The notes under the pieces are model-generated. The model was not told where the DNA came from. It did no database searches and was given only the letters and a program-made list of their open reading frames with translations. Below, in pieces: positions 373 to 64,000 of a DNA stretch of 64,000 nt. The stretch is taken from NCBI GenBank assembly GCA_902728285.1, contig CACVBU010001144.1, forward strand, positions 620,001 to 684,000. The letters run 5' to 3'. This DNA is from Clytia hemisphaerica (lineage: Eukaryota; Cnidaria; Hydrozoa; Leptothecata; Clytiidae). How positions within the stretch are numbered: the stretch's first letter is position 1; each line of letters begins with the position of its first letter. The position numbers and the translations under genes were made by a program.

Positions 373-1039
373 TGAATAATTCCATCATTTGTCCAGCTCC
401 TCTCTCCGTCAAAAAAGTGTTTCGTGTCCATATCCACAGTTCAAGTATATGATAAGTGTATTCAACGTTTAAAACATAAATTTTCAAAGTGTATATGCAT
501 TCGATTTACATTTCTCATTTTTTAGACATCAATCGGAGATTGCTTGTATCCACAATATAAAGTTTTGATTCTTTGTTTGGTTTATCTTCATATGAATAAA
601 ATGTTCCAGAGTGTATTGCAGTTGGACGTTTCCCAGAAATAAAATGTGGATCGTGAATACATATAACAAGAAGCCGGCTGTTTTTATATTCCCATGTTGT
701 TGAATTCTAGAAAGATATTGTACACCATAAAACCTGAAAACGAGAACGGTAATCTAATAAATACTTGTCACAGTGCACCCTTGATAAAGTAAATTGGGGT
801 TTTGCAGAAGGGAGAATATCGAGGGAACAATTTTGGGGTATCAAAACCTGAAAGGAATTTTATGTGATAGTGGCATATCACTTTTTCTAGCGGTAAAATC
901 TCGTGTAGTAATAGAAAATCCAAATATTCGAGTCCACTGTGGTCGTTGTTTATAAAAGGAAAATTTATGCTTTTTGATAAGCTAAAGAATGTTTCGGCAT
1001 ACCTTCAGCATTGATTCGACCTCCACACCTTCCACAGTG

Positions 1040-4000
1040 CTACCTCAGCACAACGTCTGTTTTCAATGGTCGTCTCTTTTTCTGAAAATAAATCAAAATG
1101 TCCACATGGTTTGGCTTCTGCAAGTTGTAAAGAAAAGAAATGAGGAACACAAAAAATATGAGTAAGACGACGTGAGAATTCTCTGAAGTTGAAAAATAAA
1201 TTCATTGTATAGAGTTCAACCGATATACTAAACATTCTTACCACTTCAGGGTCTGAAGGTACTCTGGATAAGAAATCCAACAATTCGTTATTAGGTATGG
1301 CATTTGGTTTACGTATTCTTTTGGTGAATTTGTTGACACCCCATGCCAGCAGAAGGTATCGTATGGGAACAATGTAGAGGACGACTGTACCAAGAAGCAG
1401 GATGACCATCAATAGATATGAAAGGAAAGGTACTGACCAATTGAACGTGCTAAAAACAAACAAAATAATTACACATGAAAGCAATTACCTTATGAAAATT
1501 ATTCAAAATTTGATACATCCTACTAAACCTGAATAAAGCCTTGTTATGGAAAGAGTCAGAGCACTTATTTTGCGATAAAACTAGACAAAAATGTAAACGC
1601 CAGCAATTTAAGCAAGAGAAAGGAGAACTACCGTATTACTACGAATATTTATTAATTTTTTTGGATTTCAGGAGGGGTGTTTATTCGAGGGGGGGGGGGC
1701 GTTTGAAAGAATGGGGTGTTTATTAAACAATTTATAAAGAAGGTCACTTTAGTAACATGAATTGGAACCTTTTTTTGCCTTCTCGTTATTATTTGAGTAC
1801 AAATATGTCAGGGAAGTAAAAATGGTCAAAACCAGTTCGAATACAAAAAGAATACAATTATTGTTGCATATCTAAGCTTTTCTTCATATTATAATTCTTT
1901 ACTGCCACCTGTTTCGAATAAACGCCCCTTACGCCCCTTCTAAGGGGAGGCGTTTATTCAAAGGGGGCGTTTATTGAAAATTTTTCCATAAAGAAGGGAA
2001 GTTTATTCGAATTAATACGGTATTTACTTTTTGATTCGTTCACCGAAAGAAGCGACGTCGTCCATCTTATTTTGTACCAGTGTACAAATATTGTTGATGG
2101 CTTCCAACTTCTCACGAAACGTCTTTGAACGGCCCTAAAGCAAGTCAAGAAGAAAATAACATATAATAAACATAAAAAGGGTTGCGGAACGAAAAAAGAA
2201 ATTTCGACATGAACAAACGATTGTCAAACTTTCATTGGTAATGTTTCCCAACAGCAAAGTTAGTGGCCTTTAGGCTGGTAGTTCATCTGAATAAATTTAT
2301 GAATATTTCTTATCCTATCTTTTCTGTGACTTTTTGAAATAATTATCTAGCCCTTTATATAACATAAGACAAATTTATTAACAATTCAAAAAATGTATTA
2401 TATATTTCCCTTCAAAATGTAAAAGAAAATAGTGTGGAGTTTGAAAGATGATCTTGAGCTTTTCAGCCATCAGAACCTTTATCTTTGGGTGACAGATGAT
2501 TAATATGATATAAAGATATACAGATTTTTTACGCAGACCTGCGTTAACCAAATGGAAGGGAGAGATACCTTTTTATTTTTTTCATCATCGTCATCGTCAT
2601 CATCATCTTCGTCTAATTCTTCCTGAAATGGAAACAACAAACTCCATTCAATCAAACCTCCATCGGAGAGACTTTCTCTTACTTAAAATTGATCAAACCC
2701 GTTCGACCCCGGGGGGGGGGGGGTACTAGGTTTGCGAGGTGACGGGTATGTCCGAGCCGAAAATCGAAAATCGAAAATCGACCCTTTGAGAGACAAAATT
2801 TTGGTGATTTTGGGACCCTTTGAGAGACTTTTTCCTAAATTTCGGTCCACTTTTTCCAAATTTTGGTTTAATTTTCACCAAATTTTGGTCAAAATTCTTG
2901 GAAATCGTGACCCTTTGAGAGAGAAATTTTTGATTTTTGTGATTTTGGGACCCTTTCAGAGACTAACTTTTGAATTTGTACCCCTTTGAGAGACTTTTGA
3001 GGAATGAGAAAAGGTACCCTTATGGCTCGCACATACCCGGCACCCATTTTGCCTAAGTACCCCCCCCCCCCGGGCGTTCGACACTCTATGGCTTCACAAT
3101 CCTTACTGCACATCAAGGAACTTTCTTCAATTGTTTTTTTCATTGTTTGGAAATCTTTGCCTATTTTGCGTGAGATTGATTGCTCGTTAAATTAAATCCA
3201 AGCTGGATATATTAAGGCTCACTCACAAAACCACAAATCCAAAAGTTTTTAGGATATTTATCTCGCAATTTTTAACCTCGTGACAATTTATATACACAAA
3301 ATGTAGCTAACATTTAAGCATAAGCATAAGAAATAGATGGAGAATTAACTCCTTTTGTTTCATTGTACCTAATCATCGGAAGCAAACTGTTCCTTGCAAT
3401 GGGAACAAGTGATTAATTTTGTGTGCACTCATGGGAATATTAAAGTTCATAAAAAAACTGAATAAAAAGATGTCGGATTTTCAACAACTCAATTGTGAGA
3501 TAATAGCTTTGTTGATCAAAATAAGAAAAAGCTTTCCGTAACAAGCACAAAATCCTATATTTCTAAGGGTCCCATAAAATCATCAATAAATTTCAAAAAG
3601 AATTCTATATTACGATTAGGTAACCTTTCAATTAATCATCCATCAGAATTTGAAAGCCCCCTCCCTTTTAGACGTAAAGATTTCTAATGAAGAGATTTTC
3701 AAGGAAAATGTGCTGAAACTCTCAAAATTAGCACAGTGTTCGCCCAAAAATACATCGATACACCTAAATCATAGAACCTTATTTATTGTAACCTTAATTA
3801 TTTTTGTATCGCGTTTGAAAATTTACATTTCAGTTTTTTGCTTCCAATTATAGGCCAATCAAAGAAAACCGATTTGAATTTAACGATCACTATTTTTATT
3901 ACCTTCATGATTTTAAGGAAAGGCAGTAAAACTGCAAAAGTTTCTTACCTCTTCTTGGCTTTGTTTGTTGGGTGCGAGCATAAAAACAATATAATTTTTC

Positions 4001-24164: not shown

Positions 24165-25230
24165 TGAAGAAGAGTGAGTAGGAGTTTTATGCTCGAAAAA
24201 ACAAAAACATAAATTGGGCAGTCATAAACAAAGATTTACAATGTATTGAGTGGCATAAAACTTTGCACTCAACCTCTGACCCAGAGAAACAATACGAAAC
24301 TTTTATTAAGTGTATATCAGTTATTTCAGCAAACAAAGTACCAGCTCGAAAACCAAAAAATTCTTATAGAATAGAGACAGACGTATTTTGATGCGTAATA
24401 GAAAAATTGAAAAAAATTGAAAAAAAAAGGCATCGAACGAACAAAAACCACACAGAAACTTATCGATATTGAACTCAAGCTTCAACAGTTACACATAAAT
24501 GAAAGACAAAAGCAAGAACTTGATGCTACTTCAAATATTAAATATAATCCTAAATATTCGTATGCCTATGCAAAGAAGTTTTCAAAGCATAAACTCAAGG
24601 TTGGACCCTTAATATATTCGTCAACAAATGAACTTACAACTGACAGTAAACGTATGGCTAACATACTTCAGAACCAATACAGTTCTGTCTTTACTCAGCC
24701 ATTGGAGAGATATGACTTGAATGAAAATGACAACAACACTTCTCAACTATGTGATATAGACCTCACAGAAGCTGATTTTATCAACGAAATCAACACCCTA
24801 TCTGCCCCTGGACCTGATGGTTTCCCTGCCATCCTGCTCAAAAAAGCCAGACAACAACTTGCAACTCCTTTTTGTCTTATCTGGAGAAACATTCTAGACA
24901 AGAGTCAAACTCCCCATCTGCTGAAATCAATCTACATCACACTAATCAATCGAAGTAAGATACAGAAACATCTTGAAGACAACAATCTTTTCATTGGCAG
25001 ATCCTACCTGAGCCAACTTCTCTCTCACACGGAACGACTTATCCACCATATAGAAAACGGCAATAATGTGGACGTGATCTACCTTGACTTTACTTTAGCA
25101 AGGCTTTCGACAGAGTCAACCATACAATCCTTCTGAACAAAATTAAAACCAATGGCATCAAAGGCAAACTGCTTGCTTGGATCAAATCCTTCCAAACAAA
25201 TTCTTCACTGATACCCAAAAGGTGATAGAC
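24165..25230 (+). pseudogene. Non-LTR retrotransposon (LINE) fragment, N-terminal reverse transcriptase
   Basis: One frame from 24,417 to 25,136 shows a LINE RT N-terminus: NPKYSYAYAKKFSKHK, MANILQNQYSSVFTQP, APGPDGFPAILLKKA, then HLEDNNLF and NVDVIYLDF. Upstream, 24,230-24,400 in another frame reads like the endonuclease-RT linker (KCISVISANKVPARK). The segment between TLIN and HLEDNN is deleted where RT motifs normally lie. The catalytic YxDD region and the 3' end are absent, so the copy is inactive. A CR1/Jockey-like clade is likely. Confidence 0.8.
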
Positions 25231-25600: not shown

Positions 25601-26645
25601 TGGACCTACCTAATGATCAACATCAGATGAAAATAAGAAAAAAGTGACAATAATTGTACAAAAATTCAGAATGGAAAAATAAAGCTTGTGTGTTGAATAA
25701 TGTAAAATGGTAAAAAGGAATTTCCCCAAATACGAAAATCACATAAACCATTCAGGCCCAAAAAACCCTACTTTTAAGCTGTTTTGGCCCAAATTTGCCA
25801 AAAAAATTTTCCTTAAAAATCTGGCTCCGTCACATTTTGGGCATTGCTATTTGCATCATTGTGCAAAAAATCAGAAAAAATTATGAGTCAACATTGAGAA
25901 AAGCTATATTTTCTTATTTGGTTAAAGGGAATTTCCCCAAAATACGAAAATCCGTCTTTTAAGGCAAATAAGAATTTCCAGGAAAAACCACTTCAGCCAT
26001 TCTTTAGAGAATCTTGCCCTCCATCTTTGTACAAAAAATCAGAAAAAAGTAATGACAGGATTTTACACAAAGTCCAAAAGACCTATCTTTACAGATCTTT
26101 AGGCAGTTTTTGGCCCATATTTGCCCAAATATATTTTTTTCGAAAATCGGGCTCTGAGACATTTTAGGCATTGCCATTTTGCATCATTGTGCAAAAAATC
26201 AGAAAAAAATTATGAGTCAACATTGAGAAAAGATATATTTTCTTATTTGGTTAAAGGGAATTTCCCCAAAATACGAAAATCCGTTTTTTTAAGGCGAATA
26301 AGAATTTTCTGGGAAAAACCACTTCAGCCATTCTTTAGAGATCCTTGCCCTCCATCTTTGTACAAAAAATCAGAAAAAAGTAAAGACAGGATTTTGCACA
26401 AAGTCCAAAAAACCCTATTTTTAGTTTTTCTGAGTTTTTGGCCCAAATTTGCCCAAATAAATTGTTTCTTAAAAATCGGGCTCCATCACGTTCTGGGCAT
26501 TGCCATTTTTCATCATTGTGCAAAAAACCAGAAAGAACTAATGAGCCAATCCTGAGAAAAGCTGGTAACAGACAGACGGACGGACGGACGGACGGACATG
26601 GGTTAATTTATAGAACCTCCACCGGGGTACCTGGAGCTAGGTCCA
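25601..26645 (+). mobile_element. Tandem-unit plus microsatellite element, copy 1
   Basis: It starts near 'tggacctaccta' and ends 'ccggggtacctggagctagg'. It holds about three diverged units containing 'gtgcaaaaaatcagaaaaaa'. These are followed by 'gagaaaagctggtaacagac', a (GGAC)n run at 26,577-26,595, and the tail 'catgggttaatttataga'. Related copies lie at 42.8, 45.05 and 46.97 kb. Confidence 0.7.
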
Positions 26646-34547: not shown

Positions 34548-35559
34548 TAGTCGAACGTGCGCAACGCACTGGGCTCAACTTCAGTGGCTTCAAATTATTC
34601 ATAGGCCCAATTGTAGACCCCCAGATATTTACCCAATGAACAAGTGTGCCAAATTTCAACCAAATCCGACCATTTTGGAGGGCTGTAGGCTGCTTCAAAG
34701 CTTTAGCCTCGTTTTGGCAAAAAACTCGTCCCCAGGCCCCAAAAATCTAAATTTTTGAAAAATGCGAAAAGCACCCCCAGATATTCACCCAAGGAACAAG
34801 TGTGCAAAATTTCAGCCAGATCGAACAATTTTTGAAGTCTCCAGGCTGCCCCAAAATTTTAGCCTCGTTTTGGCGAAAAACTCGTCCCCAGGCCCCAAAA
34901 ATCAAAATTTTTGAAAAATGAAAAAAACACCCCCAGATATTCACCCAAGGAACAAGTGTGCAGAATTTCAGCCAGATCGAACAATTTTTGAAGTCTCCAG
35001 GCTGCCCCAAAATTTTAGCCTCGTTTTGGCGAAAAACTCGTCCCCAGGCCCCAAAAATCAAAAATTTTGAAAAATGAAAAAAGCACCCCCAGATATTCAC
35101 CCAAGGAACAAGTGTGCGAAATTTCAGCCAAATCGAACAATTTTTGAAGTCTCCAGGCTGCCCCAAAGTTTTAGCCTCGTTTTGGCGAAAACTCGTCCCC
35201 AGGCCCCAAAATCAAAAATTTTGAAAAATGAAAAAAATACCCCCAGATATTCACCCAAGGAGCAAGTGTGCCAAATTTCAGCCCAATCGGACCATTTTTG
35301 AAGTCTCCAGCCTGCCCCAAAGTTTTAGCCTCGTTTTGGCGAAAAACTCGTCCCCAGGCCCCAAAAATCAAAATTTTCAAAAAATGAAAAAAACACCCCC
35401 AGATATTCACCCAAGGAACAAGTGTGCCAAATTTCAGCCAAATCCAAGCATTTTTGAAGTCTCCAGGCTGCCCTAAAGTTTTTGTGACAGACAGACAGAC
35501 ACACACACAGACACACAGACAGACATTGTCAGATTGTAGCTCAACTGAAGTTGAGAATA
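34548..35559. mobile_element. Element built of 156-bp tandem units plus a microsatellite
   Basis: About five to six units of about 156 bp recur; 'tttagcctcgttttggc' appears near 34,702, 34,859, 35,016, 35,171 and 35,326. A (GACA)n/(CA)n stretch at 35,485-35,526 follows, then a tail with 'ctcaactgaagttgag'. The inverse 'ctcaacttcag' stands near the start (34,574). No duplication of the flanks was resolved. Confidence 0.85.
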
Positions 35560-58969: not shown

Positions 58970-60069
58970 TCAATCACTTATTATCATGTATTTCTAAAAA
59001 GAAATCTGTAATTTAAAGGAACCAAAAGATAACGTTATATGGACTGGCTTTAAAAAACATATTTTTTAAATGTTCAGATCAAATGGATAGATCAAAACAG
59101 AGGGTTAAATAAAGACAGGACTGACCTTGTTACAAAGGGATAAATACAAATAAACCACAGGCAAACTAAGAAAACTAGCTTAGTTAAAATCTGAGCAGCA
59201 TCATTCAGCATCATTTTGTTTGAAATGTTCAGAAATGTTGGCACATGTTTGTACATGTTCATTTCATTAAAAAACTCTACCAAATGATATTTTTCAGATG
59301 CCTCTACCCCTCGGGCATATATTTGAATAAGTTTTCCAGAGGCTCCTGCGGATTATTGCGAAACCCTTGTTTAACTCAAACATGTATGGAATTATCTTTC
59401 TAATTATCAGCTGCCGCCCGCAAAGTTTGCGGATATCCTGTGGAACTTCGCATTCTCCGCGTTTCACTCAAGCATGTATGAAATATCTTTCTAATTATCT
59501 GCCGCCGCCAGCGGAGCTCGTGGATATTCTGCGAAAAAATACACATTTCACTCAAGCTTTTAGAAAATACACACTTACTTTTTAGTTGTTTTAAAAGAAA
59601 AACAAAAAGCAAATTAAGAACAATCGAGAAGTTTTGATATTATCAGTTAAATACTTCTTTAACATTCTTTTTATCACGGGTAATCTTATACATCTTTTAA
59701 ACAGCCAAAAGTAAATTTTGTAACAAGTAAATAATAAATCCATACCTTTAAGGAAAAAAATAGCTTAGTTAAAATTAAATACATTTATAAAAATGGGATA
59801 CAGAAAATGGAATAATCAGACCTGGAAAACTACGCCAATTAAAATTGGACACTTTCAAGATTATTTTTAGTCAGAAACTTCGATCTGAAAATCTGTTCTT
59901 TAAATTTTTCATAGTATAGTAACCTTAAGTTTTTCATCCCAATCAATTTATCTAATACTTTAAAGATGCATTTGTTTCAATAAAACCAATAAAACTTTAA
60001 ATTGTCTAATTGGAAGTAAAAATAAGAATCAAATATTAATGACAAATCGCATGGATTTCAAATTAAACA
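58970..60069. other. Intergenic, TENT2 upstream region
   Basis: No gene is recognised. An imperfect repeat of about 110 bp containing 'actcaagcatgta' or 'aactcaaacatgta' and 'gaaatatctttctaattat' lies at about 59,370-59,550. The TENT2 promoter must lie at the low-coordinate side, but no element is certain. Confidence 0.5.
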
Positions 60070-61450
60070 TTACCCATTGTTTGTACCAAATTCAATGTTC
60101 AGAAGTCTGTATTTCTGAACCAAATTCTCTCTGTCAGGACAATCGCTGTCCCCTGGGCTGAACCTTTTGAACGATCTGGAGTTTGGTGAATATTTGCCGA
60201 AACCCAGCGATTCCAAACCCTTTACAAACTTATTGGCGATTATTGACCCAGATTGGTTGTTTAAGACGGGATAGATTTTATCTCTGGTTATTGCAGACAT
60301 TGGGATTTTATCTCTGGTTATTGCAGACATTGGGATTTCATCTTCCTTTAAGATATTTCTCACTTTATGATGATGGGTACCAAATATTCCATAGTTAGTT
60401 GTTCAGCTTCCGGTAATGGTTCTTGACGTATGGGTTCTTTTTTGACAACAGAAGATCAGCTTTCTTGACTGCTGTCGACACAGAACTGTTGGCGATTTTT
60501 TGGCCATAAAAACGTCTTGCTTTGTAACGGTGTTGCTGATTTGGTCTGTACATGCAAGTCTCATTACCATACTCTTGACAGAAAGTTTTGCTATCTTGAA
60601 TCTGTCTTGCCTCCTGAAAGCTACAATTTCGTCGTGTATCTCATCGTACAGCTTAATCGCATCTCCATCTAACTCCATGGCTCGAGGTTGAACATGACAA
60701 TGGTTGTATATTTTACCGATTACTGCATCCATTTCTATGATATTGGATTTCTGCTCGATTTCTTATCTTTCATGGTGACGAAAACTTCATCTGGTACAGA
60801 CAATAGTAATCTTTGAAAGAACCTGTCATAAAAATTGTCCCTTGCAAATTGCATCGCATAATATGGCTGGGTATAACCAATCATACTAAAGTGTGGATCA
60901 ATAATGTCAGTTTTGACTTTTGGCTTAGTGTTATTTGACCAACTGCTACCTGAACAGAGTGAAAGATACCGAGACATTTCACTTGAACCTGAGGACCCTT
61001 TGTCTAAAGCATCGTTGAAAGACGCGAATTCATCGTGAACAGCCATCAGACGTTGTCATGTAGAGATTTCATTAGCCCTTCAAGAGTGCCAGTGTCAAAG
61101 GTATGTGGAAGGTTACCCAATTTGTTGTCAATAGAGGTTATGATGTTGAGGACGACTTTCAAAGACGCACTCTTATTTGTCCCCGATTGTCCAACTACAA
61201 GGCCATAAAGAATTACTGGTTCGGTATGCAAATCTTCATAGGCTACGGTAGCATGCTGCGCACAATAAGCTGTACTGATAAGAAGCGGTGTTGAGATGTA
61301 GGATTTCAGGACGCCAAGGATTGTTGAATTGTACGAAATCCACTTCACTATTTCTTTTGGAAAGCATTCATCAACATTGAATGTTACATCCCAAGCAGCA
61401 TTCACAGACTTTTGGTAGGAAGCAGATTCGATTAGTGGATATTTGGACAT
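60070..61450 (-). pseudogene. DUF3987-like P-loop ATPase, frameshifted
   Basis: ATG 61450 opens a frame containing a Walker A-like motif, GLVVGQSGTNKSASLK (about residues 87-102). It breaks at about 61,047, where the next frame resumes immediately with a Walker B-like AVHDEFASFNDALDKG. Further frame breaks occur at about 60,745, 60,495 (in an A-run) and 60,390. The last part, to stop 60,070, reads SIIANKFVKGLESLGFGKYS. The order (strand-loop P-loop, DEF after about 50 residues, FFQRLLLSVPDE, C-terminal GFG block) fits DUF3987 (primase/helicase-associated ATPase) proteins found in mobile contexts. A 30-bp tandem duplication (IPMSAITRDK twice) lies at about 60,270-60,330. There are no introns. 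Four frameshifts make it a pseudogene unless the assembly is faulty. Confidence 0.65.
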
Positions 61451-61870
61451 GTTTCTGTAGAATAAGTGAAAAACAGTCCAAACATCAATAAAACGATGAC
61501 AATCCTTAGTAGAATCATCTCACTATATAATTTTTTTTCGAAACTGAACCACATCGTTTCTATTTTTCAGGCATATTTATAAGTAATCTTAATAATAAAT
61601 GTCTTTCTGATCCCACATTGTTTAAATGTAACACGTTAAATGCATAGATAATCTTTTAACTTTATAAATTACAAACAGAATTTAGAGAAAAATCCCACTT
61701 ACCGGGATTTGTAAACAAAATACGTCTGAACTCAGTTTGCCACCAAAATGAAATAAAATTTGTTATCTGGTTCAACGGCATTTGAAATTGTGATGTTTCT
61801 ACATTGTAACGCCTTCTTTTTTTATTTGTGACGTCAATTTTTTAGCTTGTAGTCGTTTGACCAGTGCAAC
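61451..61870. promoter_or_regulatory. Shared upstream region between divergent genes
   Basis: About 420 bases separate the minus-strand ATPase start and the plus-strand KDZ-like gene. The region is AT-rich, with no ORF. A shared promoter is inferred from position only. Confidence 0.3.
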
Positions 61871-62579
61871 GACTTCGATAACAAGATGTTCAGTTTCAGG
61901 TTGTAGCAATGAAGATTGGTTTAGATGCTTTGCAAGTATTCCATATTCTTTTCAAGGCAATACTGCTATCAGATCATCAAATCACATGCTGCTACATTGA
62001 TCGAGAATAATGGTTGGCAGAAAGATGGCAATCAAATTATTACCATACACGACGTTGAAAGTTATCAAGAAAACTATTTAATTTCACAATTAATGATATA
62101 CTCCTATTAGAGAACAATCTAAGAAAAACTAAGTTATCGTTACAACTGAATGATATTGTTGCCGATGGATAACTTTTGCTGTTGATCCTTGTTGCACCTG
62201 AAATCCTATTTCGCAAGTGTCACTGTGTATGATATCAACCAAGTGACCATCGCAAAGTCATATCATTCACGATGCAAAAAATGTAAAAGGAAGTTTTCGT
62301 ATGGATTTATTGATGAAAAAAGTGGTATGTTACTTAGTACATTTTCCTCCTGATATTAATTTATTATTATATCATTAACTCATGGCAAACCAATCCTTTA
62401 CTTATTATTTGGATTAAATTATGAGATGTTTTTCTTGACCAGTAAAATTGTTTAATTTGGTAAAGGATTAACAGCACGAGAGGTTACTTTTTTTCTTGTT
62501 TAGGGTATGCGGAAACTCAATGTTGATTGAGATTACATCATGTTTAACAACGTTACGGTATACAGTAAACGATTGATGA

Positions 62580-63140
62580 AATATATCGACAGGGCTGCAA
62601 ATAAGCGTCGGTCATCGGTCAATGTCCGACTGATAAAGCTATTTGATTGACTGAAAATCTTTTGTGTCGGTCGTGATGTCTGAATGAAAAAAGGAATAAA
62701 CGATTAACTTGAGAGTTGAAAATAAATCTCTTACATCTTTGTCTCTTACTTAGCCTATTCTTTTAATACTCGCTTCCTTTGTAGCTTTCAGGGTGTTTCT
62801 AAGTTAACTTTTATTGACTTGCTTTCTTCGTTGCTTTCTTTGTTTCTAAGATCACTTTTATCAACCCGCTTTCTTTGTAACTCTTTTAAGGGTGTTTCTG
62901 AATTACTTTTGTCAACTTGCTTTCTTCGTAAACTTCTTTGTTTCTAAGATCACTTTTAACGAATCAATTTCTCTGTTATATACAGTAACAAACTGTTCAA
63001 AGGTAACTTTTATTTTTCCTACTCGCTTTCTCCGTAACTATATAAAAATATACACTGAATGACCGACAGGATTTTGAGTTTGACCGACAGGGTTTCTGTC
63101 GGCCATGATGTCCGATTGACTAAAAATATTTATTTGCCTG
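62580..63140. mobile_element. Inverted-repeat element inside the KDZ-like gene
   Basis: The left edge 'tcgacagggctgcaaataa' pairs imperfectly with the right edge 'tatttgcctgtatcgat'. The interior has repeated 'gtgtcggtcgtgatgtc', 'tgaccgacagg' and 'cgctttctttgtaactc' words. There is no ORF. Confidence 0.6.
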
Positions 63141-63323
63141 TATCGATAATATGATAACAATAGGAGCTTTCTCGTTTGAGAAGCTGAGTGAAATAGTAGA
63201 GGGCAATTGGGAAAGTAATAAAATCAATCCTGATAGAATAGAAGAGGCATGGTTTATTTACAGAATTTTAGAATTTATGAATGATTTTCCGGAATGGCCG
63301 CGTCATACTTCAAGCAAAGCATT

Positions 63324-63836
63324 ATATGTGACCCCCCAAGCGATTTGGAGTACATTAAAAATGAGACCGGTCTTGGTGCGGACGGATCGATAATATGTGC
63401 GGCAAAAAAGAGGCGAAACGATTTACCGTGCGGCCAAAAATCATCCAAAAATCTTTTCTAAAAATCCATTCAAACGCACTCGATCGGTCACTAAAGAGCA
63501 CCATTTGAATAAGTGCGGTATTCAGTGCGGTCATGGTGCGGACATTTTGCCGTTCGAAACGTGGTGCGGACATTTTGCTGGCATAACAAACAGCATACAG
63601 CATACATAGAAACGGCGGGGACTGCACCATCGTCCGCTTTAGTCGACGGGGACCGCACCATCGTCCGCTTTAGTCGGCGTTTTGTACGCACGGACCATAC
63701 GGTACTGTGCGGTCTTCTGGCCGCTTTTTTCAACATTTACTCGCACAATTAACCAGTCCGAAAGCGGCACGAGGACGACCGCACCAAGACCGGTCTCGTT
63801 TTTAATGTACTCCAAATCGTTTGGAGGGTCACATAT
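63324..63836. mobile_element. Inverted-repeat element splitting the KDZ-like ORF
   Basis: Nearly perfect terminal repeats of about 58 bp (ATATGTGACCCCCCAAGCGA and inverse) surround a GC-richer interior. The interior has a short tandem repeat ('gaccgcaccatcgtccgctt', about 63,610-63,680) and GCGGTC words. Removing it joins SSKAL to WNHCHSNFPEIKRM in one frame. The target duplication is not resolved. Confidence 0.85.
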
Positions 63837-64000
63837 TTGGAATCATTGTCATTCCAATTTTCCAGAAATAAAGAGAATGATTGATAGTCTATGGATAAAT
63901 CACATCTGTTCCGAAGTCTGTTGTAAAGAACAATTTATTGTAACCGATGGAAATGAAAAGTTGTACAGATTCATGTTCAGCCGAAAAGAAGAAAGTGACG

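Follow-up and report, generated by a model that had tools for sequence, protein, structure and literature searches.

The right-hand edge of a 64,000-bp stretch of the genome of the hydrozoan Clytia hemisphaerica (contig CACVBU010001144.1, positions 620,001 to 684,000 of the forward strand; hereafter the window) carries a decayed feature which is almost certainly a DNA transposon of the Kyakuja-Dileera-Zisupton (KDZ) superfamily, composed of a transposase gene and a DUF3987 ATPase gene standing back to back. The same pair recurs genome-wide, which suggests that such elements move with a dedicated motor. Because the pair recurs, target duplications are intact in four copies and purifying selection is detectable in one pair of copies, the feature is explained here as a two-gene KDZ element with the ATPase as a probable core part. 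This overall explanation, in which the ATPase would be a motor working together with the transposase, is very likely, and we are similarly confident that the ATPase takes part in moving the element. Little is known about the movement of KDZ elements, large and widespread as they are. If the ATPase is indeed a second core gene, movement in one KDZ lineage would rely on a machine of two proteins, a plan that seems to be undescribed for KDZ within the literature searched, and the element would provide a setting for a eukaryotic branch of DUF3987.

Structure of the element in the window

The element spans window positions 59308-65438 (6131 bp), with its right end beyond position 64000, as delimited by the terminal sequences of the extended locus L025 (C789:679000-688999; window position = L025 position + 58999) and by a right end common with copy L022 (L numbers denote loci, C numbers contigs). 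On the left it is flanked by the target duplication GCCTCTAC (59300..59307), which agrees with its right partner ATCTCTAC (65439-65446) at 6/8 positions. The left terminal inverted repeat (59308..59330, + strand) pairs imperfectly with the right end (..CTATGCCAAACTC), and two subterminal repeat units of 72 bp, 82% alike, are found at 59369..59531 (+). An array on the right (1.8 copies of a 98-bp unit, at about 65124-65303) has part of these left units in inverted orientation.

The ATPase gene (60088..61450, - strand), recognized by Pfam and tblastn, is broken by frameshifts into the open pieces 61049-61519, 60738-61055, 60406-60762 and 60073-60402 (all -). Its first piece matches PF13148 (DUF3987) with 28.7 bits (E 9.9e-7, cut-off 27) and its second, with 25.3 bits (E 1.1e-5) and thus under the cut-off, the next part of the profile; a frameshift lies between these two pieces. 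Both the Walker A motif GQSGTNKS and the HDEF motif are present, and the DUF3987-like ATPase proposed in the original prediction is confirmed. The ATPases of copies L017 and L015 match the window locus in tblastn with E 1e-92 and 4e-52, respectively. In the C-terminal part, a 30-bp tandem duplication (60274..60343, -) keeps the frame.

The transposase gene (61909..64000, + strand, continuing beyond the window) was traced by tblastn with the uninterrupted 541-amino-acid (aa) transposase of L018, which matches from window position 62150 past the window end (E 1e-50). Its N-terminal half contains a Cys cluster, while the KDZ core, with limits taken from L018, runs from about 63930 to about 64680, beyond the window end. 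Extension past 64 kb, suggested earlier as a check, hence recovered a KDZ core as well as a terminal repeat end at 65438. The likely start codons at 61450 (-) and 61909 (+) leave 458 bp between the genes, close to the roughly 420 bp first estimated for the back-to-back pair; this spacer (61451..61908) is a presumed shared promoter region, and other copies have similar spacers. Both genes are decayed, as had been noticed from the window, by frameshifts and stops, to which two later insertions are added.

Co-occurrence of the two genes across the genome

The genome search covered 417 Mb in 951 contigs. Its single COX1 match is on C900 (14.6 kb), where TGA is read as Trp and AGA or AGG occupy presumed arginine positions, in line with the mitochondrial code used by cnidarians and sponges. 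Scored were 90 of 780 candidates for the ATPase, 80 of 157 for the transposase and 150 of 171 for KDZ, and the resulting lists are lower bounds. Left out of the place counts were ATPase matches confined to query residues from 396 on, which belong to a dispersed repeat at the end of L017, and transposase matches confined to residues 479-541 (C90, C335 five times, C327, C654 and C240).

Using the Pfam models, 41 DUF3987 stretches, 18 CxC5 stretches (over cut-off) and at least 110 KDZ stretches were found. The DUF3987 stretches group into 30 places, with KDZ or CxC5 no more than 6 kb away at 16 of them. Addition of the window copy and of fetched DNA from C480, C624, C540:377k, C297, C321, C677, C843, C874 and C928 brings this number to 26 of 30, leaving C170, C283, C310 and C672:1382k without KDZ or CxC5. 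Querying with the ATPase protein afforded 39 places, comprising 28 head to head with a transposase (within 6 kb), three in other orientations and eight without one. Three of these eight (C321, C480 and C540:377k) bear opposite-strand transposase remnants in head-to-head arrangement, resulting in 34 of 39 paired places, 31 of them head to head; other copies keeping both genes, whose existence had been put up for checking, are thus common. At C283, the ATPase start has a terminus of the window family about 350 bp upstream, consistent with loss of the transposase from this copy, and at C170, C672:1382k, C899 and C904 the ATPase is only partial. Judged by density, about 0.3% of places would be expected near a KDZ place by chance, i.e. 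about 0.1 places compared to the 34 observed. All 15 KDZ places near DUF3987 recur, compared by eye, among the matches of the L018 transposase. The reverse count gives a weaker association, an ATPase being present within 6 kb at 34 of 57 transposase or CxC5 places. Bacterial contamination was ruled out by the spread of the 39 ATPase places over 35 contigs, some longer than 1 Mb, and by the GT-AG introns predicted in one family.

Two side observations concern gene arrangement. In L037 (C874:84500-89500), transposase and ATPase lie on one strand, both decayed. A second KDZ lineage, represented by L040 (C261:369500-374500) and L041 (C330:467000-472000), has single, open KDZ frames of 566 and 578 aa, and no ATPase was found in the fetched 5 kb of either.

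Mobility and element ends

Perfect 8-bp target duplications flank four copies, namely TTTTTAGA (L009), GAAAACTT (L010), GGAATCTT (L011) and TCCTGACT (L024), and the duplications of L015 and L017 agree at 7/8 positions. Two copies in tandem (L012/L013; C786:198500-214499) lie together between duplicates of CGATACCG, which agree at 8/8 positions but are offset by 2 bp. Exact ends are common to several copies, with both genes between them. Over 3857 bp, L010 and L011 share 99.92% identity, and their target duplications differ, so their family has moved recently. Since this family is recent and neither gene has stops in the aligned parts of L009, L010 and L011, the role of the ATPase is testable. 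Tandem Repeats Finder detected arrays of 71-98 bp units in 14 copies, at both ends in seven (71-94 bp) and at one end in the other seven, some of the ends being only roughly set. A mobile element of KDZ type with an ATPase, as originally proposed, is consequently well founded on its core and terminal repeats, the pairing at 34 of 39 places and the profile matches, while the "helper" role is an interpretation.

The transposase

The Pfam KDZ model (PF18758, cut-off 26.6 bits) matches the transposases of L018 (36.7 bits, E 4.6e-9), L009 (31.8 bits, E 1.5e-7), L017 (32.4 bits), L015 (37.1 bits) and L022 (35.6 bits). CxC5 is recognized in L009 with 49 bits (E 8.3e-13) and in L017 with 25.9 bits, under the cut-off of 26.9; its profile is not matched in L018, although the N-terminal half is homologous. 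The window pieces of the Cys gene gave no secure Pfam match, the best being CxC4 at E 0.092. The profile searches proposed earlier therefore succeeded for DUF3987, CxC5 and KDZ in the copies but not for the Cys pieces in the window, and the CxC6 match that had been looked for was recognized neither in the copies nor in the genome; CxC6 is not shared by all KDZ elements, and its model is silent in control genomes too, so that absence of CxC6 is unproven.

L018 D432 and E503 are invariant in 6/6 aligned rows, and the likely middle residue is, by eye, D in five rows and E in L020; these three acidic positions may form the catalytic triad. The Cys cluster and the KDZ core, as read from the predicted frames, are one transposase protein. 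A separate accessory Cys gene was ruled out because L018 and L019 join the CxC5-homologous region and the KDZ core in one uninterrupted frame. Hence, the KDZ association of the Cys gene predicted from the window stands, as the N-terminal part of a KDZ transposase, while its standing as a gene of its own does not. In family A (L009-L014), one GT-AG intron per gene is predicted from DNA only and was checked in L009, where the CxC5 and KDZ matches fall in two exons, as compared to the single 541-aa frame of L018. "Intronless", as the ATPase had been called, accordingly holds for the window copy but not for this sister family.

The ATPase

The ATPase of L017 matches DUF3987 with 106.8 bits (E 1.8e-30), the only Pfam family found up to E 1, with no match to IstB, TnsC or MuB. 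In PHROGs, the ATPase matches one family of phage DNA helicases, at E 3.6e-15, along with two of primases, the matches ranging from E 3.6e-15 to 6e-7. DUF3987 has been predicted as a helicase family of mobile elements, according to the accessible part of PMC5862659. By family likeness, the ATPase thus resembles a helicase-type enzyme. No relatives were found among viral contigs queried with three single window pieces and the alignments A1 and A3, among genome contigs queried with A1 and A3, among phages by tblastn with one window piece, or in a PDB sequence search; NCBIfam gave no match for two proteins, and PADLOC none for four window ATPase pieces.

At the end of the L017 frame (L017:2987-3150, -), the last 45-55 residues match a repeat dispersed over many contigs, and the true end of this ATPase gene has probably been replaced by that repeat. 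Another locus, L032 (C310:9500-15000), encodes at 383-1309 (-) a divergent, helicase-like DUF3987 protein, 23-27% identical to the element ATPases; a KDZ transposase was not found in the fetched stretch, and L032 may represent a different mobile element or a contig of foreign origin.

Families and selection

Six families were compared, all chosen because they bear the ATPase. Identity between families is 34-56% for the transposases and 34-54% for the ATPases; L022 and L025, at 78% and 63%, belong to one family. The same families emerge from the transposase and ATPase trees, where their support is full or nearly so, and the distances of the two proteins correlate with 0.81 over seven copies (a value that 7 of 5040 permutations reach), with 0.67 without L022 (10 of 720) and with 0.75 without L025 (17 of 720).

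For the diverged pair L018-L031, the ratio of nonsynonymous to synonymous substitution (dN/dS) is 0.10 for the transposase (dS 0.69) and 0.07 for the ATPase, whose dS of 1.7 approaches saturation. Differences fall mostly on third codon positions, with 0.09, 0.06 and 0.30 at the three positions in the transposase and 0.10, 0.06 and 0.44 in the N-terminal half of the ATPase. On these substitution patterns, both genes are evidently under strong purifying selection in this pair. A dN/dS of 0.8 for the ATPase of L017-L036 was discarded; in view of 97% DNA identity, it is an artefact of a frameshift.

Possible roles of the ATPase

Several observations weigh against a two-gene element with the ATPase as core part. 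The strong dN/dS signal comes from a single pair; other within-family values range from 0.25 to 1.36, including 1.02 on 15 changes for the L018-L019 transposase and 1.36 on 6 for the L022-L030 ATPase, and fit copies ageing without selection during part of their history. Even in L018-L031, the C-terminal half of the ATPase displays a weaker third-position excess (0.19, 0.16 and 0.45), and this part has, by eye, a winged-helix look for which Pfam gives no support. The deep order of the two gene trees agrees only in part. In L022, a window-like transposase accompanies a more distant ATPase, a combination that stems either from exchange between families or from nesting at this locus. At 23 of 57 transposase or CxC5 places, many of them fragmentary, no ATPase lies within 6 kb, and one such place, C170:2014436-2016028, is nearly whole with one stop; given the ATPase-based choice of families, there may be an ATPase-free transposase branch. 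Finally, three ATPase places are not oriented head to head, and no target duplication was found for L016.

With the two-gene element nevertheless preferred, the following mechanism is proposed. The transposase would cut the element ends and be partnered by the DNA-acting motor ATPase, giving a two-protein machine. The motor would act near the subterminal repeat arrays, melting or remodelling the DNA or the strand-transfer complex, upon which excision or repair could finish. Such a helicase-type step, whether at the element ends or on the joined product, is preferred over target choice and replication, with a likelihood somewhat short of even. More tentative is the wider idea of a eukaryotic DDE-type transposon which depends on its own motor ATPase as second core subunit, recruited from a helicase of phages or bacterial mobile elements and following a logic like that of Tn7, Mu and IS21, with the iteron-like arrays at the ends serving as loading sites.

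TnsC, MuB and IstB, the ATPases of Tn7, Mu and IS21, coat target DNA and activate the transposase. The element ATPase could likewise choose the target, coating it and switching the transposase on, and the pairing of a single transposase gene with a single ATPase gene, maintained in six families, would suit such a function; this is rather unlikely, however, as the relatives of the L017 ATPase are DUF3987, its sole Pfam family, and the helicase and primase families of PHROGs. Also unlikely is a replicative helicase that assists in copying excised or nicked element DNA, the element being a small replicon that gains copies and its arrays being iteron-like. While DUF3987 proteins occupy the position of a replicative helicase in mobile elements (accessible part of PMC5862659) and 7 of the 14 scanned copies bear arrays of 71-94 bp units at both ends, neither a primase nor a polymerase gene was seen among the listed frames between the ends, and the 8-bp target duplications fit ordinary insertion by a transposase. 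An ATPase acting as a passenger that protects or otherwise serves the element, outside the movement machine, would have a parallel in the TET/JBP passengers of fungal KDZ elements (accessible part of PMC12730594) and would agree with the 23 of 57 places lacking it. This reading is nonetheless improbable in view of selection on the ATPase as strong as on the transposase in the one strong-signal pair (L018-L031), the age of the pair (34-54% ATPase identity between families) and the absence of PADLOC matches for the four window pieces. Chance neighbourhood of two unrelated decayed genes, conceivable as long as the link was positional inside the window alone, has practically no probability left and is ruled out by the transposase at 34 of 39 ATPase places versus about 0.3% expected by density.

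Relation to known systems

With KDZ elements (PF18758), the element shares the KDZ core, the N-terminal Cys cluster, terminal inverted repeats and 8-bp target duplications, the latter being described, in the accessible parts of the papers, for Zisupton and a Dileera (PMC12730594) and for KDZ1 (PMC12810828). It differs in its shorter transposase, 541 aa in L018 compared to 1166-1367 aa in nematode Zisupton (accessible part of PMC9297572), in the extra DUF3987 ATPase gene and in the subterminal tandem arrays. The CxC5/CxC6 mobile inserts of Pleurotus are similar as multi-copy mobile DNA coding for a Cys-cluster protein of CxC5 type whose size (660-739 aa) is comparable; according to the accessible part of the report, no KDZ transposon was found there within the expected distance (PMC7641404). 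In contrast, a single protein of the Clytia element comprises the Cys region as well as the KDZ core; the element has no recognized CxC6 and contains the ATPase.

The DUF3987 proteins of phages and bacterial elements (accessible part of PMC5862659) have the Pfam family, the Walker A motif and the PHROG helicase match in common with the element ATPase. Here, however, the partner is a eukaryotic KDZ transposase instead of a primase, the host is an animal genome and one family has a predicted intron. KolobokP, as far as the accessible part of PMC9587614 describes it, is likewise a DNA transposon of animals in which the transposase gene has the gene of a second enzyme as its neighbour, but with a Kolobok transposase, a homing nuclease and long terminal direct repeats.

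In the bacterial elements Tn7, Mu and IS21, a transposase is paired with a dedicated ATPase gene. The element follows the same plan with an ATPase of another family, for which target choice is only hypothetical.

Literature pairing DUF3987 with KDZ, or a KDZ transposase with an AAA ATPase, was not found; the founding KDZ paper and repeat libraries lay outside this search, so that an earlier description is possible. Judged by titles and the beginnings of abstracts, the Zisupton literature on ATPases or helicases held no such element, and the DUF3987 literature dealt with bacteria, phages and their elements.

Later insertions and neighbouring features

Two insertions in the transposase gene are younger than the element. 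The first (62590..63140), not in sister copy L022, is, judged by its ends, presumably a hAT-like miniature inverted-repeat transposable element. The second (63324..63836), with 61-bp terminal inverted repeats, is likewise missing from L022 (alignment gap 63331-63834). L022 itself (C267) has open frames inserted between ATPase and transposase at L022:3937-5207, perhaps from a retroelement.

In a spot check of the neighbours, which the original prediction had described as ordinary multi-exon genes, 10 window frames were profiled and two had a Pfam match above cut-off; the window has one C2-domain frame and one chitin-binding peritrophin frame. The open frame at 24411-25133, without Pfam match on its own, resembles by eye the start of a frame like that of long interspersed nuclear elements at L015:84-1061. 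Tandem arrays of 156-bp and 329-bp units occupy window positions 34617-35482 and 25782-26561.

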